Both the position numbers and the translations under genes were made by a program. The notes below the pieces were generated by a model. It worked only from the letters and a program-made list of their open reading frames with translations, ran no database searches and had not been told where the DNA came from. From Desulfovibrionales bacterium (GTDB lineage: Bacteria; Desulfobacterota; QYQD01), in assembly GCA_028715605.1 (NCBI GenBank), contig JAQURM010000004.1:1-64000 (forward strand): a stretch of DNA of 64,000 bases. Reading direction: 5' to 3'. Below, in pieces: positions 1,572 to 12,815 of the stretch. Numbering within the stretch: position 1 is the first letter of the stretch; each line of letters begins with the position of its first letter.

Positions 1572-3311
1572 TTAGTGATTCCCTTGTCCGTTCGTCTGTT
1601 TCTGTGACTTGCTACGCTCAAACTGTACCAACGCCTTGACGATACTCTCGAAAGACTCTATGTTCCTTATCCCAGCATTTACGAATGATTGGTTTATCAT
1701 TTCTTCAATTTCTGAGGCTGGCATTTCCCGGCCAAATAGCCTTGTGAGTTCGCGGATTGCGAAACTGGCAGCCTGGCGGATATCTCCAGAAAAAAATAGA
1801 AACTTAGCCCTATTCATTATCACGCCGGTATCACCAGGGAAGTAGTTCAGCGCCCGATCGGAAACCAGAAGTCCCTCCTCAACTTCCTTCAATTCTCCCA
1901 ACACGCACTGAAGGTTCTTCCATGCTGCAAGAATCGTAGGATCTCCTTCAACCGCCCTCCTTAGAAGTCGCGCCGCGTATTGCAACTCAAGTTTTCTCTC
2001 GTAAAGCGTCCAACCAATATTGTTGTAGTCGGAAGGATACAGGTAATGCTTTTCCTCAAGTTCAGTTAGCCAGGCGATAACCCCCTTAATGTCATTCATA
2101 TGGATTAGGCAATAGACTCTTTTTATGGAAAGATCATAGTCAAAGCCCCATAATTGAAAGAATTTGTCTATCTCTACCATGCACTTGCCCCACTCCTCTG
2201 AAGAGTAAAAAATGTAGGCTCTAATCTTCTCATGGTATTTGGTATCTCTTAGGCCCTCAGTCTTGGTAAGTGCTTCTTCCTTTATTCCCACCAAGGCGAG
2301 TGCTATGCAAAGATTTGACAAGTTAATATGGTTTTTTTCGAATGAGCACGCTTTCTCCGCATATTCCAGAGCTTTCGTGTACTCCTTTCTTGAGAAGTAA
2401 ATCCCCACCAAATGCCCCAATGCAGACGCCTTGTCTGGCTTTATAGCCAATGCTTTCAGATAGTACTCAATTGCCTCATCGTATCGGCCCTTGTCTCGAT
2501 AATAGATTCCGATGTTATATAACGTGGCATCAGCTTCGCTATTCAATTCCAAGGCTTTCTTGTAACTGAAAAGAGCATCATCCAGATGCCCCATTTCGTA
2601 CAAGACAAGACCTCTGTTATTGTATGCTTGCCAATTGTATGGGTCTCTCAGGAGAATGATCTCGTAGATCAAAAGAGCTTCCTTCAAATTCCCAGTTTCT
2701 TCCGCCCTTAATGTTGCAAGAACAACCAACTGATCTGCGTCCATGTCTCTGAACGTGTCGCTTTCAGAGATGCGCATTAGAAGGTCGTGGTCATAGTATC
2801 GTAGGCTACTCCCGAAGTATTCTCTGGTCGATGAAACGGCCACATAATCTTGGTCTAGTTTCTCAACCCTTATTGTCTCGGAATACTTACGTGTCAGGTC
2901 AGATAGGATGTCGTTTCTGATCTTGGAGCACAGGTCCATGGGGTCATTGAATGATCCGCAATGAACCCGGTACGCCTGTTGCCCGATGAATTCTGCTAAC
3001 CTTTCGTCTCGTTTACCTGTGTTCCGAATGTAAACGAATATTCTCAGATTTGAATTACTGGCCTCCAAAAACTCTTTTTCGACCGCATCGCGTAATTGTT
3101 CGTCCAACAAGAGGATAAGCAAATCTGAGTGCCTCACTTCGTCGATATAGGCCTTTTCAATAGGTCGCGGGCTAGCGTGTTCCTCAATGGCATAAAGTTC
3201 AAAGAACTCTTTGAGAACTGCGTCAGTCCCAAAGAGAATCCTGATCCCGCCCCTTTCGCTGTCGAGCTCGCCAGCCATTGCCGAACTTAGAAAAACGATT
3301 AATCGTTTCAT
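1572..3311 (-). CDS. DUF4062-like N-terminal domain fused to TPR repeats
   Basis: A 579-residue cytoplasmic protein. Residues 1-150 resemble DUF4062, a TIR/nucleoside-deoxyribosyltransferase-like Rossmann fold: RLIVFLSSAM at the start, then HSDLLILLLDEQLRDAVEKE with a conserved acidic residue, then a strand RIFVYIRNT. From about residue 195 the rest is helical and contains tetratricopeptide repeats; three adjacent units are clear (NWQAYNNRGLVLYEMGHLDD, DATLYNIGIYYRDKGRYDEA, KASALGHLVGIYFSRKEYTK). Known DUF4062 domains often sit in front of STAND or TPR sensor regions in conflict-system proteins, so an infection-sensing role is possible. No nuclease, protease or ATPase module is visible, and no partner gene is adjacent. 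Function is inference; architecture is well supported. Confidence 0.7.
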   Translation of the reverse strand: MKRLIVFLSSAMAGELDSERGGIRILFGTDAVLKEFFELYAIEEHASPRPIEKAYIDEVRHSDLLILLLDEQLRDAVEKEFLEASNSNLRIFVYIRNTGKRDERLAEFIGQQAYRVHCGSFNDPMDLCSKIRNDILSDLTRKYSETIRVEKLDQDYVAVSSTREYFGSSLRYYDHDLLMRISESDTFRDMDADQLVVLATLRAEETGNLKEALLIYEIILLRDPYNWQAYNNRGLVLYEMGHLDDALFSYKKALELNSEADATLYNIGIYYRDKGRYDEAIEYYLKALAIKPDKASALGHLVGIYFSRKEYTKALEYAEKACSFEKNHINLSNLCIALALVGIKEEALTKTEGLRDTKYHEKIRAYIFYSSEEWGKCMVEIDKFFQLWGFDYDLSIKRVYCLIHMNDIKGVIAWLTELEEKHYLYPSDYNNIGWTLYERKLELQYAARLLRRAVEGDPTILAAWKNLQCVLGELKEVEEGLLVSDRALNYFPGDTGVIMNRAKFLFFSGDIRQAASFAIRELTRLFGREMPASEIEEMINQSFVNAGIRNIESFESIVKALVQFERSKSQKQTNGQGNH

Positions 3312-3739: not shown

Positions 3740-3858
3740 GTAGGTGAACATCTATTATCCAGCTACGGCCCGATAGGCTTCATGAACCGCCTAGTCCGCC
3801 GCAGGCGGATGCCAGGTGGTGTGGGGACCAGGGGAGAGAAGCCCCCGGGTACCCCGAT
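3740..3858 (+). mobile_element. Group II intron remnant: domains V-VI and 3' end
   Basis: Domain V is visible at 3786-3820: a lower stem ACCGCCT/AGGTGGT, an upper stem TCCGCC/GGCGGA around GCA, and a short bulge on the 3' side. Domain VI follows (3823-3855): GGGG and CCCC close a hairpin with an unpaired A at 3851. That A lies eight bases from the end of the element, which finishes in GAT at 3858; a bulged A seven or eight bases from a terminal AY is the hallmark of a group II 3' end. Domains I-IV and the reverse transcriptase are missing. The upstream bases 3740-3785 are probably the end of domain IV. Confidence 0.78.
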
Positions 3859-4139
3859 TAAGGCTTCTTTTTTGGGTCTTGTCTATTGTCAAATACAGAA
3901 TGTATTATAATTGCATTATGTTCAATCGTATAAAATATAGAAAAAGGGAATCTTCTTATCGGGCACCCACGAAAACACGAATATCGAATTTGGTATATCT
4001 CCGGATAATGAATAATGTTTTGCAAGGCGGCCTCTACACAATTCAGAAACTCAAAGCCAAGTCCCCTCCGTTGTCTTTCATACCAAGCAAAAGCTAATTC
4101 GACATCATCTTTTGACCTGTCAGTATAACGAAGCTTCAT
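3858..4139 (-). CDS. RelE/ParE family toxin
   Basis: The 93-residue product has the RelE/ParE plasmid-stabilisation pattern: YTDRSKDDVELAFAWYE with an N-terminal helix pair, GLGFEFLNCVEAALQNI, then a strand series ending RRFPFSIFYTIEHNAIIIHSVFDNRQDP. Such toxins act on ribosome-bound mRNA or on gyrase; the subgroup cannot be told from sequence alone. It overlaps the upstream antitoxin gene by four bases. Its stop codon (3858-3860) touches the last base of the group II intron remnant, so the last few residues may have been altered by that junction. Confidence 0.85.
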   Translation of the reverse strand: MKLRYTDRSKDDVELAFAWYERQRRGLGFEFLNCVEAALQNIIHYPEIYQIRYSCFRGCPIRRFPFSIFYTIEHNAIIIHSVFDNRQDPKKKP

Positions 4140-4549: not shown

Positions 4550-5191
4550 TTATCTGTTTTCCCTTAAACGTATTACGCGAGGGTCCGTGGGAGCTAACGT
4601 AGTTTGAACAGTTCTGCCGGTATCCTTTCCGAAATAATCAAATGTTGTCACCAGTAGATAATCTATCACGATTCTAAGGTCACGGCTCTCTCCCTCGCTC
4701 ACAGTGTCGCCCGCCCAGACTACCTCCGTTTGACCGGATTCACGTAGTTTATGGGCATCTATCACTCTTATTGATAATGACCGGGTAAGATACTGAATGG
4801 AATAAGGTTCATACCTGTATACAGTTTCATAATACCACGTCTTTGAATAAGGATCATAGGCTCTGATGTCTTGAGGTCTCGAAATAAATCCTGTATACAA
4901 AGGGCCTCGACCTATCCCATACCGAAAGACAAGGTGAAAGTCCGCATCCTCAGCCGGGGAAAGTGGATAACCCTTTTTTTTGAGCAGCCGGGCTATTTTT
5001 GACGCCACCTCTCTTTCAAGGAGAGGGTTGTCGGCTTCCGGGCTCTGTACTACAAATATTGTCTTGCCGGGGACCAGAGATGGAGGGCGTGCCGGATCCA
5101 AATAGCCGGTTACATCGATGCGGTAGGTAGCGCAGCTTGTGGCCCCAAGAATCAGACCAACGAAAAGGAAAAATTTAAGTAGAAATCTCAT
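4550..5191 (-). CDS. DUF4136-type outer-membrane lipoprotein
   Basis: Starting at the ATG at 5191, the product is 213 residues with a lipoprotein signal (MRFLLKFFLFVGLILGATSC, lipid-acceptor Cys20). A purine-rich ribosome site (AGAGGGA) stands just upstream, so the longer frame to 5233 is unlikely. The mature part resembles DUF4136: an early strand (TIFVVQSPEADNP), a helix over REVASKIARLLKKKGY, and a long strand pair containing DADFHLVFRYGIG. Members are anchored envelope proteins of unknown function. It closes a minus-strand run that includes two other lipoproteins and the glycyl radical enzyme genes. Its last 55 codons are duplicated at 3566-3739. Confidence 0.7.
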   Translation of the reverse strand: MRFLLKFFLFVGLILGATSCATYRIDVTGYLDPARPPSLVPGKTIFVVQSPEADNPLLEREVASKIARLLKKKGYPLSPAEDADFHLVFRYGIGRGPLYTGFISRPQDIRAYDPYSKTWYYETVYRYEPYSIQYLTRSLSIRVIDAHKLRESGQTEVVWAGDTVSEGESRDLRIVIDYLLVTTFDYFGKDTGRTVQTTLAPTDPRVIRLRENR

Positions 5192-5295
5192 AGGGAATCC
5201 CTCTGCCCGGACTAAGTCCTCATGCCTCGTCAAACCGGATCAGATGCCCCCAGGGACCCTTCGCCAACAAACCCCTGAAGAACCCTTTTTCATCT

Positions 5296-5410: not shown

Positions 5411-6376
5411 TCATCTTACTACATCGAATCCGATCTCAACCCTCATCTTTTCCCAGTCCTCATCCAGGAGTAGAAAATAACCGAAATTCCTGTACCGGTA
5501 CAGGTCTGGATCAAGACCTGGATTGTATGCCCTGGAGATATCCGTAGCATAGAGAAGCTGGCCCATATAGAGGCCTTCGGCTATCTGTACTATCTCATCG
5601 ATACAGTAGTTATCCGGCGGAAAGGTCTTGAGCTTGGGCCAGCGATAGTTAAACTGATAGACCATGCGTCCCTTATTATCCGGGTTAACCGATCGGCCCT
5701 CCCGGCCAATAAAAAAGAAGCCTTTCACATCATAGTCACGGGTTCTTATCTCTTCGGCTGTAGCCGGCTCCAATTCTATCTGGAGGGCTTCCATGGCGTC
5801 CACGGCCGCTTTCTGGCGGGATGTCCGGGCGCTGTAGGTATTGGAACCCCAGGTCGTTGGGACTTGGCCGGTCTCAAAGCCATCGGTTATATCTTTAAGC
5901 CTTTCCACTTTACATTCTTCAAAGGTCTTGCCGGTCCAGGGCGAAAAGACCCTGACCAGGGGCCAGGGGATGTTGAGGAGGTTGATATTCAGGCATTTAA
6001 CCAGTTCCTGACTCTGAAAGGCCACCACTGCGCCGTGTACGTAACCCTGCATGTCCTGAGGCGCAATGCTACAGTTAAATATCTTTTGGAGTTTGTCAAA
6101 ATACGGTGATTTTGTGCCTATGTCCTTTTGTAGCTCATCCGAATAAAATTTCATCAGGGCTAAAACTGTCCCTCTTTCTTTCAGATCCCTTTCTATTTCC
6201 GCCAGCAACCGGTCTTTTGGGCCTTCCATACATTCTTTTTTAAAAGTAAACCGGGTAAACTTTTCCGGTTGAGGCCCCAGGCCTTCTCCCTGCCTGCCGG
6301 CGACGGCGCAGGAAGAAAGAAAAATAGCCACAAGGCATAGGATAAAGCATCTGAGGTTGTTACTTTGAGCCTTCAT
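5411..6376 (-). CDS. Lipoprotein of unknown function, paralogue of the upstream gene
   Basis: The 321-residue product has a lipoprotein signal ending LSSC (Cys23), so it is probably anchored on the outer membrane facing the periplasm. I do not recognise the family. It shares several blocks with the protein encoded at 6430-7398: SPWTGKTFE (against SPWDGKIFE), FNYRWPKLK (against LNYRWRNLK), IDEIVQIAEGLYMGQLLYATD (against IDELVEIADGLYLGQLLFATD) and the ending FGYFLLLDEDWEK (against FGYFLLMDDDWNR). The two are therefore tandem duplicates that have diverged widely. A 53-base spacer suggests co-transcription. The conserved GLYLGQLL block is the likely functional core. Confidence 0.7.
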   Translation of the reverse strand: MKAQSNNLRCFILCLVAIFLSSCAVAGRQGEGLGPQPEKFTRFTFKKECMEGPKDRLLAEIERDLKERGTVLALMKFYSDELQKDIGTKSPYFDKLQKIFNCSIAPQDMQGYVHGAVVAFQSQELVKCLNINLLNIPWPLVRVFSPWTGKTFEECKVERLKDITDGFETGQVPTTWGSNTYSARTSRQKAAVDAMEALQIELEPATAEEIRTRDYDVKGFFFIGREGRSVNPDNKGRMVYQFNYRWPKLKTFPPDNYCIDEIVQIAEGLYMGQLLYATDISRAYNPGLDPDLYRYRNFGYFLLLDEDWEKMRVEIGFDVVR

Positions 6377-6429
6377 ATTAATCCTCCTTTAGGTTACAGA
6401 ATAAAAATACAGAATACAGAAGTTAGGAG

Positions 6430-7398
6430 TCAGGAGCCGGGAGTCATAAGATAGACCTTTTCTCGGTTCCAGTCGTCATCCATCAACAGGAAATAGCCAA
6501 AATGTTCGTACTGGTACGCGGCTGCCGGACAACCGGGATCATAATCTTTGAGAATGTTGTCGGTGGCAAAAAGCAGTTGCCCGAGATAAAGTCCGTCGGC
6601 TATCTCTACTAACTCATCTATAAGATAGCGTAGGGGCGGAGAATTTTTAAGGTTACGCCACCGATAATTGAGCTGGAGAACCTGCTTGCCCGGATTGCCG
6701 GGATATACTGATTCTGCCCTATGCGCTATAAAGAGTCCGCCTTTTTTATCATACCCATATTTCTCTTTCTCTGCCGGCGGCGCGTCCTTCAGGCCGAGCC
6801 AAAAGGTAAGCACCTCCGTACTCAGGACATTCCAGACCGATCCCCAGACCTCTTTGAAACAGTTTATGCCCATAAAGGTAGGGACGGCGCCTTTTTCCCA
6901 GCCTTCTGTATATTCCGCAAGCTCGGCATTGATAGCGGGTTCAAATATCTTGCCGTCCCATGGTGAGGCCTCGCTTAAGGTTGCGCTCCAGAGGCGATTA
7001 AGGAAACCGCCATAGCGGTGTTCTCCCTTTTTTAAGACCAGCGTCAGGCCATAGTGATGACCCCGGAGATCGACCGGACGCCCCTTGGCAAAAAGCCAGG
7101 CCAGTCGCCCGAGATAGGGAGAATCCGGAGAGGCATCTTTTTCCAGTTCTTTCATGTAAAAATGCATAAGTTCAAGGATAGACGCCTTCCCTTCCAAATC
7201 CTTCCCGATGGCCAGAAACACGGGATCGTCCCGGATGTCAGTGGTGTCGAATTTAAATTCTGTAAACTTCGGCGTGAGCTGTGGTCTTTCCGGCCTGGGC
7301 TGAGGAGTGGTGGCGCAGGAGGTAATAATTAATAACGTAAAGAACGATACCAAAACAGGCAGCCATTTTATTTTCACGCCCCGGCGTATCTGCGACAT
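6430..7398 (-). CDS. Lipoprotein of unknown function, tandem paralogue
   Basis: With the ATG at 7398 the product is 322 residues, with a basic N-terminus, a hydrophobic stretch and a lipobox ending TSC (Cys28). The upstream AGGAGG seven bases away supports this start; a longer frame to 7473 merely runs through a dispersed repeat. The first eight codons (MSQIRRGV) are themselves encoded by a copy of the 19-bp microrepeat described in the findings. The rest aligns in blocks with the next gene (5411-6376), including the SPW(D/T)GK.FE and GLYLGQLL segments. Periplasmic, lipid-anchored; function unknown. Confidence 0.7.
   Translation of the reverse strand: MSQIRRGVKIKWLPVLVSFFTLLIITSCATTPQPRPERPQLTPKFTEFKFDTTDIRDDPVFLAIGKDLEGKASILELMHFYMKELEKDASPDSPYLGRLAWLFAKGRPVDLRGHHYGLTLVLKKGEHRYGGFLNRLWSATLSEASPWDGKIFEPAINAELAEYTEGWEKGAVPTFMGINCFKEVWGSVWNVLSTEVLTFWLGLKDAPPAEKEKYGYDKKGGLFIAHRAESVYPGNPGKQVLQLNYRWRNLKNSPPLRYLIDELVEIADGLYLGQLLFATDNILKDYDPGCPAAAYQYEHFGYFLLMDDDWNREKVYLMTPGS
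7375..7395. repeat. 19-bp microrepeat copy 1
   Basis: Two mismatches to the consensus CGCCCCGGCGCATCTTCGA. It encodes residues 2-8 of the lipoprotein ending at 7398. Confidence 0.7.
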
Positions 7399-7446
7399 GT
7401 GCGGCCCTCCTTTAAGGCTATAAGTCTGAATTTGAAGCAAGGTGCG

Positions 7447-7473
7447 GAAAATGCGCTCGTTACGCATGTTCAA
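7447..7473. repeat. Dispersed repeat with core ATGCGCTCGTTACGCATG
   Basis: Second copy of the unit at 4495-4520, differing at two positions. It lies in the leader of the lipoprotein gene and accounts for the spurious N-terminal extension of that frame. Confidence 0.7.
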
Positions 7474-7598: not shown

Positions 7599-8573
7599 CT
7601 AAAACCTGACCAACTCCGCCCAGGCAAATATATCCTGATATGTCTTAAATTCCCCTGGTGTGAGCAGATGCCTGGAGATCCTGGGATCAACCTTCTTCCC
7701 GATACTCTCGGCCTTGGAAATCCAGGTCGGGTTATAAGGAAGCAAAGAACATTTTTTTACACCCAACCCTTCCAGCAAGTCTGATATGGATCGCAGGTTT
7801 TCCACCGTGGTCGTAAATCCCGGGATAAGCGGGATGCGCGGCAAGACCGCCTCCGCCCGTTCGTCCCCGCCCCGGCGTATCTTCGACAGGAGATTCTTAA
7901 GGTTGGTCAGTATCGGTTCGTTGCTCCGGCCGGTATATTCCCGGTGTTTGTCTGCATCCGCCAATTTGACATCAAACATGATCAAATCCACATAGGGAAG
8001 TATCTTTTCCTCAAACTCCCTCCAGGCGAAAAATCCGTTGGTCTGGATGGCCGTATGGATGCCTGAATCCTTCAACACCTTTAAAACAGCCAAGGCATAG
8101 TCCATAAAAACGGTCGGCTCACCGCCTGAAAGGGTCACCCCGCCGCCGGAGACCTCATAGAAGGTCTTATCCCTAAGGAGAATCTCCACCAGTTCATCAA
8201 CCGGATAAAAGCGGCCGATCAACCTCAGGGCGCGTCCGGGGCAGGCCTCCACACAGTCACCGCACCTGGTACACCTTTCCCGGTCGATCAGAAAAGGGTT
8301 TTCGAGCGCACAGGCTTTTGCCGGGCAGGCGGAGACACAATCGCCGCATCTTATACAGTCCCGGGGATAAAACCCGATCTCCGGGCCAAGGTCAATGGAT
8401 TCAGGGTTCTGACACCATAAACAAGTTAACGGGCATCCCTTAAAGAAGACCGTGCTACGAATACCAGGCCCGTCTTCCAGGGCGTGTCTCTTAATATCAA
8501 AAACCAGGGGCCGCGCTGTCGTCAGATCCGCCGAAGGCGTGGTTGTTAGATTCGCCGTTGGAGAAGCGGTCAT
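7599..8573 (-). CDS. Glycyl radical enzyme activase (radical SAM, two extra 4Fe-4S clusters)
   Basis: This 324-residue protein uses S-adenosylmethionine and an iron-sulfur cluster to place the radical on its partner enzyme encoded two genes upstream. The radical-SAM triad is C47-x3-C51-x2-C54 (KGCPLTCLWC), preceded by EDGPGIRSTVFFKGC. Two ferredoxin-type clusters follow (CIRCGDCVSACP and CTRCGDCVEACP, about residues 70-115), the insert typical of activases for non-PFL glycyl radical enzymes, then SGGGVTLSGGEP. The start overlaps the SCP2-like gene by one base (TAATG). The first 20 residues are an odd Thr/Ala/Pro stretch with two imperfect repeats. One microrepeat copy encodes the SKIRRG segment. 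Confidence 0.9.
   Translation of the reverse strand: MTASPTANLTTTPSADLTTARPLVFDIKRHALEDGPGIRSTVFFKGCPLTCLWCQNPESIDLGPEIGFYPRDCIRCGDCVSACPAKACALENPFLIDRERCTRCGDCVEACPGRALRLIGRFYPVDELVEILLRDKTFYEVSGGGVTLSGGEPTVFMDYALAVLKVLKDSGIHTAIQTNGFFAWREFEEKILPYVDLIMFDVKLADADKHREYTGRSNEPILTNLKNLLSKIRRGGDERAEAVLPRIPLIPGFTTTVENLRSISDLLEGLGVKKCSLLPYNPTWISKAESIGKKVDPRISRHLLTPGEFKTYQDIFAWAELVRF
7868..7886. repeat. 19-bp microrepeat copy 2
   Basis: One mismatch to CGCCCCGGCGCATCTTCGA. It lies within the activase gene and encodes the IRRG part of a surface-like loop (SKIRRGGDERAE). Confidence 0.7.
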
Positions 8574-9040
8574 TAAGGCAGATTACCGGTCAACTCCAGT
8601 TGGAGATGGTTGGCCATAAAGCCAAACTTGTACATATAGTTAAGATTGCCGGTCACAACCACTTCGTTATTGAGAAGTCCTTTTAAAATATCCCGGTTGG
8701 CCGAGAGCAAAAAGTTCATTAAGGCCCGGCCATCTTTAAAGGATACTATGACGTTAACGTCGTCAGAGGCCTTCTCCCTTATTTTCATATCACCATCTTC
8801 AAATTTAACCAGCACGGCCACACCGCCATCCCTGCTCCTGAACTGATAACGCCCCCTAAAGCCTTCGATGTTCTTGCGATAGGCCGGGTCTAACATAAAT
8901 TTGATCCTCATAAAGGCCAGCAGGGCCTCTAAAAACGTCTCGGCCGTCTCGTCCTCAAGGCTTTTTAAAAACTTCTCGCCGAGCCGGTCCAGGGCCTTAT
9001 CCACGGATAACCCGCTTATAAATTTTTCGATATCAAACAT
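8573..9040 (-). CDS. SCP2-like sterol/lipid-carrier domain protein
   Basis: A 155-residue soluble protein beginning MFDIEKFISGL. The ATG at 9040 is seven bases from AGGGAG; the ATG two codons earlier is too close. Residues 60-150 fit the SCP2 fold, a hydrophobic cavity that binds lipids or acyl-CoA-like ligands: YQFRSRDGGVAVLVKFEDGD, then VNVIVSFKDGRALMNFLLS, and the C-terminal helix-strand ILKGLLNNEVVVTGNLNYMYKFG. It is wedged between the glycyl radical enzyme (23-base gap) and its activase (one-base overlap), so it is very likely co-translated with them. I infer a role in presenting a hydrophobic substrate or in protecting the enzyme. Confidence 0.65.
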   Translation of the reverse strand: MFDIEKFISGLSVDKALDRLGEKFLKSLEDETAETFLEALLAFMRIKFMLDPAYRKNIEGFRGRYQFRSRDGGVAVLVKFEDGDMKIREKASDDVNVIVSFKDGRALMNFLLSANRDILKGLLNNEVVVTGNLNYMYKFGFMANHLQLELTGNLP

Positions 9041-9063
9041 GGCCATGCTCCCTATCGCCTATT

Positions 9064-11481
9064 TCAAATCTCCGTGCCGGTAGCCAGGTCATACTCCGCA
9101 CGGGTGATTATCTCCTGCTGCATGTGAGGGTTGAGGTCCCTGAAATAGGCCGTATATCCGGACACCCTCACAAAAAGGTCCGGATACTTCTCCGGATACT
9201 TTCTCGCGTCCTCCAAGGTCTTGCGGTCAATGATATTGAACTGCACCTGCAGGCCGCCCATCTTAAAAAAGGCCTCGATGGTGTTGGCAAACCCGGGCAG
9301 CGTCGTGGTAGAGGGGGTGTACTTAAGGTTCAGGGCATGGCCATCCGCGATTTTGGTGTGGTCCATGCGGGCCACAAAATTAAGGCAGGAGGTCAGAACC
9401 GGCGCGGAACCGGAGACCGGTGTAATGCCGCTGGCAAATGGCTCACTCTTCATCCGGCCGTTGGGCAGCGCGCCGGTGAGCGCCCCGAATCCGGCATGGT
9501 TGGTCATGGTCCAGTAACCGACCGTATATCTGCCGCCCCGGTAATTTTCCTTGCTCTGGAAAGTATCATGCAGGAAACCTATCAACCAATCGGCATTAGC
9601 CCTGGCCATCCGGCTATCCGTGCCGAACTTTTCCTGTGAGGCCTTAACCATAACCTGAAGCCTTTTATAAGGTCCGCTCCAGTCGGCGTTTATGGCCGAA
9701 ATCATCTCGGCCATAGTGAACTTTTTCTTATCAAAAACGAATTCCTGAATGGCCGTTACTGAATCCACCACATCGGCCAGCCCGATCATGGCCGCGCCGG
9801 ATGAGTTATAGGTAGCGCCGCCATAGATGACATCTTTGCCTTTCTCTATGCAGCCTTCCATCAGGGCGGAAAGCATGGGTGTGGGGTGTATCTCCTGGTG
9901 GGCCCGGCCTAAGTTGTTATTCAAAGTTACGACTTGATTAATCAGCCAGCCAAGCTGTGTTTCCATGGCCTTTTTAAATTCCGCGAAAGAAGTCATGTCC
10001 ACGGCCGGTTTTGTCTTTGGCCCGACCTCTTCATCTTCGGTCAGGCGGTGTTTGCCTCCCCAAAGGGCCATTTCCAGGGCCGAGGTAAGATTCATTAATA
10101 TACAGCCGGTGTGACCGTAGGCCCGGCCACTACTTGACGGCTCCACACAACCCACTGATGAATAATCCCTGGCATGCTCAAGGGATACGCCCTGCCCGAT
10201 CAAGGTCTCAACAGCGGAGACATCGTTATGGAAACATGGGGTGGCCCCGGTATTGATATTGACCGCGCAGAGCCGATCCAGGTATTCCTTTTTGTTTACC
10301 TCCGGATAGTAGCGGGCATTGACATTGGGATCGCGGAGCCGCAGAAGTTCCGTGGCCTTAAGCATGACGTAGGTAAGATCATTTACGGCGTCTTCACCCT
10401 TCATATCTACTCCGCCTAATGTAACGGCCTGATTAGAGCCGCTCCCTCCGAAGAGTTCTTCGCCGGTTTCCGGGCTTAAAGGCACATGGTCGGCAATCTT
10501 GAGCCAGAAGCAGCCCACCAGTTCTACGGCCTCAGCCGGAGTCATACCCCGTTTTATATCCTCAGCATAAAATGGATAGAGTACCTGATCTAATCGTCCC
10601 AGGCTCAAGGCCACATTGGCATTTTCCTGGTGCAGGGCGATCTTACAGATCCATATAGCATTTAATGCCTCGCGGAATGTCCGCGGCCTTTCGGCCGGCA
10701 CCCTTTTGCAGACCTCGGCCATCTCAAGGAGCCCCTGACGGCGTTTGGTATCCACCTCTTTTGCCGCCAGCCGCTCCGCCTCCCGGCTGAGATTGGCGGC
10801 ATAGCTTATGACCCCGCTAAGCGAGAGTTGCACGGCCTGATAAAAGTCCTTTTTCGCCCTGTCCTCTTTAGAGCCGCCGAGCGAAAGCCCCCTTTCCCTG
10901 GCCTCTCTTATGATATCGAGAAGCCCCCGCTCCACTACCATGGCGTAATTAGGGACGGTATGGGATATGCAATAGACCTTGGTGGCTATGTAAAAGACAA
11001 TCCGCTCCATGATCCTTTGACAGAGGGGATTGCCGTTATCCTTCCTGGCCACCTCCTGGATGGTGCGATCCGGCCAGTAAGGGAATATGTCGAAGTTTAA
11101 TTCATCTATCTCTGCCCTGGTAATGCCAAAGGGATTTTTCTTCCGGCGGCTAACGGTCTCCAGTTCGGGCCAGATAGAAAGGGCCATAAAGTCCGGATAG
11201 AGGACAACGCCGATGGTCCTGGCGGTAGTCGTCCCGGCCAGGAGATTTTCATCGGCAATCACCGGCCGTTTATTCTCCATCACGTACTTATAGAGCCTCC
11301 CGGCCCGCAGTTCCGGAGAATCAGCCGGATTATCCGGATGCCTCATATAACGGGTTATATTCCGCGGAAGCTCCACGCATATCTCCGGCCGGGTAGCAAA
11401 ATGAAGTTCCCGTAGCCGTTTCAGCCGGGGCAGCCTGTCCAGTGTAACGTCTTTTAGACTCAAATCATCAATAGTACCCAT
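9064..11481 (-). CDS. Glycyl radical enzyme of unknown substrate (not pyruvate formate-lyase)
   Basis: The 805-residue protein has the ten-strand barrel and radical domain of the PFL/glycerol dehydratase superfamily. The thiyl radical cysteine is Cys445 in GCVEP (with Glu447), the motif of the dehydratase, decarboxylase and C-N or C-S lyase branches; true PFL carries two adjacent cysteines instead. The radical glycine is Gly775 in RVSGYTAYF near the C-terminus. Another family block is NVALSLGRLDQVLYPFY. AAGGAG precedes the ATG at 11481. Its operon with an SCP2-like protein and an activase suggests a hydrophobic substrate. Choline, glycerol, hydroxyproline or isethionate as substrate cannot be confirmed by eye. 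Cytoplasmic and oxygen-sensitive. Confidence 0.9.
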   Translation of the reverse strand: MGTIDDLSLKDVTLDRLPRLKRLRELHFATRPEICVELPRNITRYMRHPDNPADSPELRAGRLYKYVMENKRPVIADENLLAGTTTARTIGVVLYPDFMALSIWPELETVSRRKKNPFGITRAEIDELNFDIFPYWPDRTIQEVARKDNGNPLCQRIMERIVFYIATKVYCISHTVPNYAMVVERGLLDIIREARERGLSLGGSKEDRAKKDFYQAVQLSLSGVISYAANLSREAERLAAKEVDTKRRQGLLEMAEVCKRVPAERPRTFREALNAIWICKIALHQENANVALSLGRLDQVLYPFYAEDIKRGMTPAEAVELVGCFWLKIADHVPLSPETGEELFGGSGSNQAVTLGGVDMKGEDAVNDLTYVMLKATELLRLRDPNVNARYYPEVNKKEYLDRLCAVNINTGATPCFHNDVSAVETLIGQGVSLEHARDYSSVGCVEPSSSGRAYGHTGCILMNLTSALEMALWGGKHRLTEDEEVGPKTKPAVDMTSFAEFKKAMETQLGWLINQVVTLNNNLGRAHQEIHPTPMLSALMEGCIEKGKDVIYGGATYNSSGAAMIGLADVVDSVTAIQEFVFDKKKFTMAEMISAINADWSGPYKRLQVMVKASQEKFGTDSRMARANADWLIGFLHDTFQSKENYRGGRYTVGYWTMTNHAGFGALTGALPNGRMKSEPFASGITPVSGSAPVLTSCLNFVARMDHTKIADGHALNLKYTPSTTTLPGFANTIEAFFKMGGLQVQFNIIDRKTLEDARKYPEKYPDLFVRVSGYTAYFRDLNPHMQQEIITRAEYDLATGTEI

Positions 11482-11519
11482 TGCCGCTCCTTAAAGCTTT
11501 CAGCCTTCAGCTTCCTATC

Positions 11520-12815
11520 TTATCTCCCGTAACCCAGAGAGGCGGACCAGACCTCGTAGTTCCTATCCCTTTCCTTCTCTTCCTCAAGATAAAAGACGAT
11601 AAAGGTCATGACATGCCAGCCGATGAACTCGCAGTTTTCCTGGTCAAAAGTCGTGTGCTCAAATACCTTACGCCAGGTGCCGGTGTTGAAATAGATCTTT
11701 TCTATGACGTCGTTCTGGGGAATGGGCACGATATCCAGGGGAATCTGCTCGGTATGATGCGTATGTCCGTACACCACATAACGGACGAGGTTGTTCTTAA
11801 GGGCGGCCTCATTATAAGCAAATCTCCGGTAATCATCGGATTTGCGGTACAAACTGCGGACAACCCAATGGCCCAGGATTTCCTGAAGCTTATTAAAGGA
11901 AAAGCCAGAGGAAAGGCGCAAGGCCATCTCTAAAAAGTCCACCGTGTCCGGGCCAAGCCGGTCGTGATCCTTCACAAATTTTATTTTAAAGAATTCATTG
12001 ACCAGGTCGTTCCATATGGCATGCATCCTCTGTTCGATGCCAGGGGTATAATTACAAACGCCCTGGATCCAGGCCGGGATCTCCAGGAGAGGCCTTACGT
12101 TGTCAATTTCTTTTAGTCGGTTGTACAGGTCGGTATGCGGGGCCAAAACAGGGTCTTTTCTTACGGCCTCCGGGAAACGATTTAACAGGTCAATGACGAT
12201 GGCATCCCCCAGGGAGGAGGCATCTCTGTCCCCGTCATAGTTGAACTGGTCATAGTAGTCACCGTGACGCGCCATAACTCTATAACTTTCAAAAACCCGG
12301 TCATAGGGAAAGCGATTTTGGGCGTAAAACTGGGGGTCCGGCATTCCCAGAAATTGGGCTATCTTCTGGCGGGTGGAGGCATATCTGTTAATGAGCCAGT
12401 CGTGATTGCCTGTCAGGTAGGATAGTTCAACATTAACACCTAACTTGGCGCAGTGTTCCTGAAACTCTCTTATATACCCTATGGCCTTAATATTCCGCGG
12501 CTGGTTGATAATTTTGTCCACAATTTCTTCGGCATATCTTTGCAGATTCCACCCGCTTCGATCAGTGTCTGTAGCTGTTGACCATGGTCTTACAGGCTTT
12601 TGGGGGGCGTCGTTTTCTTTACGCAGCCACAGGTCAGAACGGATGACATCAAATATATCTCCCAGGAGCGCTATCTCCAGGTTCTTGATGTTGGATTCCC
12701 CGGGGTCTCCTACGACATCCTCCAATATCCGGCAGAACTTGCTAAAGGCCCTGGGATCAATCGTTGTGCCTGATGATCCGTCCGTGAGATGTACATCGCT
12801 TAGAAAGACTAACAT
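11520..12815 (-). CDS. Calcineurin-like metallophosphoesterase
   Basis: The 431-residue protein carries the full set of metal-binding motifs: SDVHLTDG (residues 6-13), LGDIFDV (about 52), GNHD (about 138), an inner ARHGD and a terminal VVYGHTHH (about 353). This fold hydrolyses phosphomonoesters or diesters with two metal ions. At 431 residues it is longer than UDP-2,3-diacylglucosamine hydrolase (about 240); the extra helical segment lies between the GNHD and HGD blocks and beyond. No signal peptide is seen. GGAGGG precedes the start. It ends 38 bases before the glycyl radical enzyme gene on the same strand, so the two may share a transcript. Substrate unknown. Confidence 0.85.
   Translation of the reverse strand: MLVFLSDVHLTDGSSGTTIDPRAFSKFCRILEDVVGDPGESNIKNLEIALLGDIFDVIRSDLWLRKENDAPQKPVRPWSTATDTDRSGWNLQRYAEEIVDKIINQPRNIKAIGYIREFQEHCAKLGVNVELSYLTGNHDWLINRYASTRQKIAQFLGMPDPQFYAQNRFPYDRVFESYRVMARHGDYYDQFNYDGDRDASSLGDAIVIDLLNRFPEAVRKDPVLAPHTDLYNRLKEIDNVRPLLEIPAWIQGVCNYTPGIEQRMHAIWNDLVNEFFKIKFVKDHDRLGPDTVDFLEMALRLSSGFSFNKLQEILGHWVVRSLYRKSDDYRRFAYNEAALKNNLVRYVVYGHTHHTEQIPLDIVPIPQNDVIEKIYFNTGTWRKVFEHTTFDQENCEFIGWHVMTFIVFYLEEEKERDRNYEVWSASLGYGR

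Follow-up and report, generated by a model that had tools for sequence, protein, structure and literature searches.

A glycyl radical enzyme subfamily paired with an SCP2-like protein in a Desulfovibrionales bacterium and its relatives

The 64,000-nt stretch of contig JAQURM010000004.1 (assembly GCA_028715605.1, Desulfovibrionales bacterium), here called the window, carries on its minus strand a run of genes for a metallophosphoesterase, a glycyl radical enzyme (GRE), an SCP2-like protein, a GRE activase and three lipoproteins, as called from open reading frames (ORFs; Table 1). The initial annotation had put the first four genes in this order, with gaps of 38 and 23 bases and a one-base overlap, and had placed Cys445 in GCVEP and Gly775 in RVSGY. 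ORF calls together with Pfam and NCBIfam matches gave the same order, and both residues were found at the positions claimed. The 38 bases between the phosphoesterase and GRE genes and the one-base overlap of the SCP2-like and activase genes (TAATG) also stand, whereas the gap of 23 bases after the GRE gene fits the second ATG of the SCP2-like gene (9040); the distance to the first ATG (9046) is 17 bases. The activase scored 288 bits against the NCBIfam GRE-activase subfamily TIGR02494 (cut-off 174). The four-gene order was also detected in the four further genomes searched within the genus; the match to the G002 copy spans one in-frame TGA. Because this order is kept in the four genomes and the pairing of GRE and SCP2-like protein recurs in many lineages, the operon is more than a chance arrangement. 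We counted 8 promoter-like sites (10.2 expected) and 17 terminator-like sites (11.0 expected, standard deviation 3.4), and an Rfam scan of the window gave no match.

Table 1. Genes and selected codons of the GRE locus in the window.
Feature	Position	Strand	Evidence or remark
Metallophosphoesterase (calcineurin-like), 431 aa, first in run	11520..12815	-	Pfam Metallophos 26.8 bits
Glycyl radical enzyme (GRE), 805 aa	9064..11481	-	Pfam PFL-like 546 bits, Gly_radical 72 bits
Codon of catalytic Cys445 (CXE motif C445-V446-E447)	10147..10149	-	C and E in 88/88 clade rows
Codon of His174	10960..10962	-	H in 88/88 clade rows; aligns with His164 of glycerol dehydratase (1r8w)
Codon of Lys168	10978..10980	-	K in 88/88 clade rows, 2/11 other GREs
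Codon of Gly775, presumed radical carrier	9157..9159	-	G in 85 clade rows, 3 gapped
SCP2-like protein, 157 aa (155 aa if second ATG, 9040)	8573..9046	-	Pfam SCP2 19.9 bits; predicted fold
GRE activase: radical S-adenosylmethionine (SAM) domain plus extra 4Fe-4S ferredoxin-type region	7599..8573	-	TIGR02494; Radical_SAM, Fer4
LP1, lipoprotein, unnamed family	6430..7473	-	Lipobox suits start at Met 7401
LP2, lipoprotein, LP1 relative	5411..6376	-	33% identity to LP1 over 83 residues, E 2.9e-8
DUF4136 lipoprotein; tie to operon uncertain	4550..5233	-	Pfam DUF4136 35.5 bits

The window GRE has the features of its superfamily, with the catalytic Cys loop, the C-terminal Gly loop and both Pfam domains, and is the sole PFL-like match in its own genome. 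It matched 12 NCBIfam models and scored below the curated cut-off of every one (for example, CutC 447 vs 1050 and HypD 450 vs 1100); none of the NCBIfam equivalog cut-offs for CutC, HypD, HpsG/HpfG, IAD, HPAD and pyruvate formate-lyase (PFL) was reached. The earlier statement that the enzyme is not PFL is borne out by a score of 112.8 bits for pyr_form_ly_1, where the cut-off is 994. By sequence, the solved structures matched include CutC (E 1e-128) and Archaeoglobus fulgidus PFL2 (2f3o; 429 bits), the latter being the second-best solved match, and alkylsuccinate synthase (4e-72) and benzylsuccinate synthase (7e-57) rank among the weaker solved GRE matches. Sulfate reducers use X-succinate synthases, and an SCP2 protein acting as a hydrocarbon carrier would suit the hydrophobic substrate of an enzyme that adds fumarate to hydrocarbons. 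The weaker matches to these synthases, the retention of the CXE glutamate as in eliminases and an activase score of 204 bits against the BssD model, below its cut-off of 496, make such an X-succinate synthase extremely unlikely.

For the SCP2-like protein, the Pfam SCP2 (PF02036) score was just short of the gathering score of 21.3. An AlphaFold2 model built from 78 sequences (pLDDT, the predicted local confidence, 85; pTM, the predicted template modelling (TM) score, 0.81) was compared with solved structures by Foldseek, and the best match was UbiJ-SCP2 (6h6o; E 1.6e-5, probability 1.00, TM-score by target 0.66). Other solved matches were alkylsulfatases and SCP2 proteins of animals, yeast and archaea. 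The SCP2-like assignment of the initial annotation is thus upheld, and the protein is predicted to have the SCP2 alpha/beta fold. A search of PDB sequences with an SCP2-like relative gave nothing significant, and a plasmid collection held no match to the SCP2-like protein. In the 78-row alignment of the SCP2-like proteins, 13 of the 17 invariant or near-invariant positions are hydrophobic. In the alkylsulfatases SdsA1 and Pisa1, found by the fold match, a C-terminal SCP2-type domain belongs to the same polypeptide as an enzyme that works on alkyl chains; both are hydrolases with a catalytic domain unrelated to GREs. UbiJ, the nearest solved fold, is described as an accessory to cytosolic enzymes, and its SCP2 domain was proposed to bind the hydrophobic polyisoprenoid tail of ubiquinone intermediates (PMC9499169). 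The two proteins differ in sequence (12-15% identity) and in their partners, which are Ubi enzymes for UbiJ and the GRE for the window protein.

To describe the nearest relatives, public genomes were scanned with an alignment of seven relatives, and the figures given here are for the best 80 of at least 579 confirmed loci. The lineages named among them are groups of Desulfobacterota and Acidobacteriota, together with Nitrospirota, Nitrospinota, Gemmatimonadota, Latescibacterota, Bacillota, Bilophila and others, and the majority of the loci come from metagenome bins. With a profile grown from the window SCP2-like protein, 78 of the 80 loci proved to encode an SCP2-like domain. Lack of the SCP2-like gene beside close homologues of the GRE would have refuted the interpretation in the initial annotation, and among these loci no such lack was seen away from contig edges: both loci in which the domain was missed lie at such edges, one contig stopping ~130 bases past the GRE (L053) and the other inside it (L068). 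The domain is encoded by a separate gene in 66 loci, always on the same strand and downstream of the GRE, and starts no more than 250 bases past the GRE stop codon in 63 of these; the remaining three are two broken GREs (L052, L094) and one locus with a small membrane-protein-like gene interposed (L057). In a further 12 loci the domain is fused to the GRE, at the C-terminus in six and at the N-terminus in six, and the first genome search had added another four N-terminal fusions, one lying on split contigs. That fusion is seen at either end hints at contact between the GRE and the SCP2-like protein, and it strengthens the accessory role that had been offered for the latter. Two loci (L058, L060) are near-identical, and the 88 clade rows used below include a few duplicates.

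We also surveyed 297 genomes of the phylum with a GRE profile, scoring up to three candidates per genome; the figures refer to the listed rows. This survey and the 80-locus set share genomes and are not independent (at least L031, L033, L093, L056 and L108 are contigs of G002, G003, G007, G260 and G087). At least 38 listed GRE rows, in 30 genomes, scored 787 bits or more, and the next listed row scored 650 bits. For 35 of the 38, an SCP2-profile match lies within the GRE frame or next to the gene, counting three weak matches in the same frame of more than 1000 codons (G056, E 1e-4; G195, E 1.6e-4; the second GRE of G033, E 1.4e-7). The three others (G069:C84, G015:C116 and G271:C23) are contig-end pieces that lack the N-terminal part. 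Of the listed rows under 650 bits, a single one (G271:C8, 507 bits) has SCP2 in its frame; it matches the first 385 positions only and seems to be the front of a split clade GRE. None of the other listed rows with 650 bits or less sits on a contig that also holds a listed SCP2 match. Conversely, 38 SCP2-profile matches had an E of 1.3e-11 or lower, and 35 of them are fused or adjacent to a clade GRE or to an N-terminal GRE piece, as was checked for the pieces in G015 and G069; the remaining three, in G008, G072 and G172, are described below.

A tree of 96 rows (94 of them distinct) was computed by a quick IQ-TREE search with Shimodaira-Hasegawa-like approximate likelihood ratio test (SH-aLRT) support. 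It comprised 85 clade GREs and 11 other GREs, namely E. coli YbiW and PflD, one CutC above its cut-off and eight more; the GREs of L052 and L094, shorter than 700 residues, were excluded. The clade GREs split from the 11 others with an SH-aLRT of 100, in a reference set with long outgroup branches, a single bona fide CutC and neither HypD nor diol dehydratase. The nine N-terminal fusions form one group (support 100). By parsimony, the C-terminal fusion requires four changes across those clade rows that lack an N-terminal fusion. One C-terminal fusion, L066, was modelled whole (pLDDT 88.8, pTM 0.90), and its model matched choline lyase, propanediol and glycerol dehydratase and HypD at ~30% identity, with TM-scores by target of 0.87-0.95. 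The structure alignment (A4) has ~16 residues from the N-termini of the SCP2-only rows falling into GRE columns.

Cys445, Glu447 and His174 are invariant in the clade. The CXE motif is conserved among GRE eliminases, according to PMC7077986, and by this mark the window clade, with CXE in all 88 rows, falls with the eliminases. His174 would be the counterpart of HypD His160. Three residues of glycerol dehydratase, H281, S282 and D447, which we take to be substrate-pocket residues, align with V290, A291 and G459 of the window GRE, and these polar pocket residues of glycerol and propanediol dehydratase are thus not kept in the alignment. In column 290, 84 of 88 clade rows carry M, V, I or A and the 11 other GREs a polar residue or Tyr; column 291 holds A or G in 86 of 88. 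The clade is further marked by K168 and E378 (each 88/88 in the clade and 2/11 in the other GREs), W657 (86/86), N388 (87/88) and N521 (87/87). As far as the alignment goes, the pattern may be that of an eliminase whose pocket is less polar.

These data bear on whether the window GRE is an ordinary diol dehydratase, choline lyase or hydroxyproline dehydratase with an SCP2-like gene in its operon by chance. With the known GRE eliminases (CutC, glycerol and propanediol dehydratase, HypD and IslA) the window clade shares the common fold, the CXE motif, the Gly loop and, in the window, an adjoining activase, and the high TM-scores of the L066 model apply to all of these ordinary enzymes. The clade differs in its identity of only ~30% to them, in lacking counterparts of H281, S282 and D447, in keeping K168, W657, E378 and N388, and in its SCP2 partner. 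Given also that the NCBIfam cut-offs are missed widely, that the clade is separate in a tree whose references hold one bona fide CutC and neither HypD nor diol dehydratase, and that pairing and fusions recur across many lineages, we regard an ordinary enzyme with a chance neighbour as very unlikely.

Our preferred interpretation is that the window GRE probably belongs to an undescribed subfamily of GRE eliminases in which the SCP2 part presents a hydrophobic substrate. A fatty or otherwise water-insoluble substrate is likely. By the family pattern, the neighbouring radical SAM activase would install a glycyl radical on Gly775, which would pass to Cys445 as a thiyl radical, and Glu447 and His174 would serve an eliminase-type reaction. 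A hydrogen atom would be abstracted beside an OH or similar group and the neighbouring group lost, giving an aldehyde or ketone. The SCP2-like protein, a constant partner through a putative complex or through fusion, may hold the hydrophobic part of the substrate and pass it to the active site in the manner proposed for the SCP2 domain of UbiJ. We infer this role as a substrate carrier from the predicted SCP2 fold and the UbiJ precedent.

The main rival to a carrier is a purely structural or regulatory small subunit that shields the radical or controls substrate entry and binds no lipid, in which case the substrate may be small and polar. Some GREs have such small subunits (benzylsuccinate synthase, 4-hydroxyphenylacetate decarboxylase), PDB titles name benzylsuccinate synthase alpha-beta-gamma complexes, and constant pairing with fusion at either end suits a subunit as well as a carrier; the alcohol dehydrogenase and transketolase genes near one fused GRE (L125, described below) also speak for a subunit. 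The lipid-binding SCP2 fold, the lipid- and alkyl-handling proteins among its nearest solved matches, the hydrophobic character of most conserved SCP2 positions and the hydrophobic GRE column 290 all argue the other way, and we consider a small subunit of this kind possible, though less probable than not.

Neighbouring genes of the N-terminal fusions point to a possible fate of the product. From 29 loci taken, one without a GRE ORF (L142) was set aside, leaving 28 loci, 27 of them distinct, since L108 and L118 are one contig. Among the 28, we found an activase in 17, a TetR gene in 11, an AMP-binding ligase in six, a member of the aldehyde:ferredoxin oxidoreductase (AFOR) family in five and a short-chain dehydrogenase/reductase in three. 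The ligase that was scanned has its nearest match in a subfamily of fatty acid CoA ligases (737 bits vs cut-off 832). The oxidoreductase of L107 scored 227 against an NCBIfam cut-off of 868, yet lies well above both Pfam AFOR cut-offs, and an oxidoreductase of the same family is present in the unfused Bilophila locus L081. The ligase and oxidoreductase neighbours hint that the GRE makes an aldehyde, which would then undergo oxidation and activation to acyl-CoA. A more specific proposal, which we hold to be doubtful, is that the GRE and SCP2 parts form a lipid eliminase that would cleave a lipid backbone or head group without O2 (for example of a 1-O-alkylglycerol or a long-chain diol), yielding a fatty or alkoxy aldehyde that would pass through aldehyde:ferredoxin oxidoreductase and acyl-CoA ligase to beta-oxidation. 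Outside the operon, the window genome gave three matches to AFOR_C and two to AMP-binding.

Several observations weigh against a hydrophobic-substrate eliminase with an SCP2 carrier. The window operon itself lacks ligase and aldehyde oxidoreductase genes, and four of the five oxidoreductase loci and four of the six ligase loci belong to one family (f32) and are non-independent. L125 has as neighbours two zinc alcohol dehydrogenases as well as a split transketolase, none of which is plainly a lipid gene; given these different neighbours, the branches of the clade may differ in substrate. An activase ORF was found in 68 of the 80 loci, with only four of the 12 misses at contig ends. The window SCP2-like protein falls short of the Pfam gathering score, A or G in column 291 also occurs in five of the 11 other GREs, and the starred branches of the tree, taken alone, are compatible with one origin of the C-terminal fusion. 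Finally, SCP2-like genes without an intact adjoining GRE occur in three genomes of the survey: G008 (L113:1-3612) keeps the SCP2-like gene and activase with no GRE alongside, G072 (L111:3815-4517) retains ~77 front residues of a GRE, and G172 (L112:3265-4591) its last 63 residues. These cases may reflect gene decay or assembly faults.

What is new here is a GRE subfamily with a lipid-carrier-type partner, within the known GRE family. To our knowledge, characterised GREs work alone or together with small subunits that have no kinship to lipid carriers. In the open-access literature, which takes in few subscription papers and no bioRxiv preprints as such, queries combining GRE or pyruvate formate-lyase with SCP2 or sterol returned nothing relevant, the one paper found, on a fungal genome, being judged unrelated, and in wider queries of the open-access literature we noticed no description of this GRE subfamily. 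A word search of a report on a new aminoacyl radical class (PMC11528403) gave no 'lipid', 'sterol' or 'fusion'. A clade tied to SCP2, spread over many phylum names and in some members fused to it at either end, provides a concrete case of candidate GRE chemistry on water-insoluble substrates in anaerobes. Were the substrate a lipid, the clade would add an oxygen-free route of lipid attack. The monooxygenase AGMO is called the sole known alkylglycerol-degrading enzyme in a review abstract (PMC7911779), and the lipid eliminase proposed above would, if it exists, be an oxygen-independent counterpart of this enzyme. SCP2 might in that case be a general device that fits the radical, molybdenum and thiamine enzymes of anaerobes to lipids.

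Among the weaker SCP2-profile matches, those opened proved to be other things. In two of them (L148:1694-4672 in G292 and L149:2046-5129 in G259), a ~1000-residue molybdopterin oxidoreductase begins with an SCP2-like domain, and an iron-sulfur protein follows the oxidoreductase, as judged by eye. In L148, Pfam gives a pyrogallol hydroxytransferase-like domain and Molybdopterin, and a 3-hydroxyacyl-CoA dehydrogenase gene lies upstream; possibly the same SCP2 device is used here on another anaerobic enzyme class. A distant SCP2-like protein was found beside a split transketolase in four genomes (L152:998-2826, L115:1939-4974, L116:1742-4447 and L117:42-2777), and in L152 its Pfam SCP2 score of 29.2 bits is above the cut-off. 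Related transketolase halves lie at L125:11052-12969, near the fused SCP2-GRE.

The lipoprotein genes downstream of the activase had been proposed to complete an uptake or export step. LP1, LP2 and the DUF4136 protein do have lipobox-like N-termini by eye. The single-linkage LP1 cluster is present in only 24 of the 80 loci, however, with window members of ~320 aa and others of up to ~826 aa, and a lipobox-like start was seen by eye in five relatives (L031, L034, L035, L065 and L070), most others being without one. An uptake or export module as a general feature was therefore rejected; an enzyme other than PFL and an SCP2-type fold, both put forward in the initial annotation, are supported. Neither LP1 nor LP2 matched Pfam up to E 10, and the five LP1-cluster members searched in this way gave nothing beyond one chance-level match; a suspected resemblance of LP1 to GXWXG/DUF4334 was not borne out. 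This unnamed family is represented at 5411-7473 of the window and also in L044, L046, L050, L056 and L072.

No other neighbour was constant across the 80 loci. The DUF6765 cluster occurs in 26, the window phosphoesterase cluster in eight, a small membrane-protein cluster in eight and a second phosphoesterase cluster in five. DUF6765 was considered as a key to function and set aside, as it is not exclusive to the clade (it is found in 32 of 198 phylum genomes, only five of them with a listed clade GRE), and it was not named in the open-access literature searched. Genes for hydrolases also occur near the GRE module, with a papain-like protease in five of the 80 loci and in L112 and L113, an alpha-amylase in three and XendoU in two; the loci of this set are L039, L046, L049, L050, L070, L074, L094, L096, L112 and L113, the last with a nuclease-like frame by eye.

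Elsewhere in the window, a protein at 1572-3311 has tetratricopeptide repeats according to Pfam, which gives no DUF4062, although its first 150 residues look DUF4062-like by eye. Pfam matches also identify toxin genes, with a BrnT toxin and CopG antitoxin at 840-1411 and a ParE-type toxin at 3858-4139.

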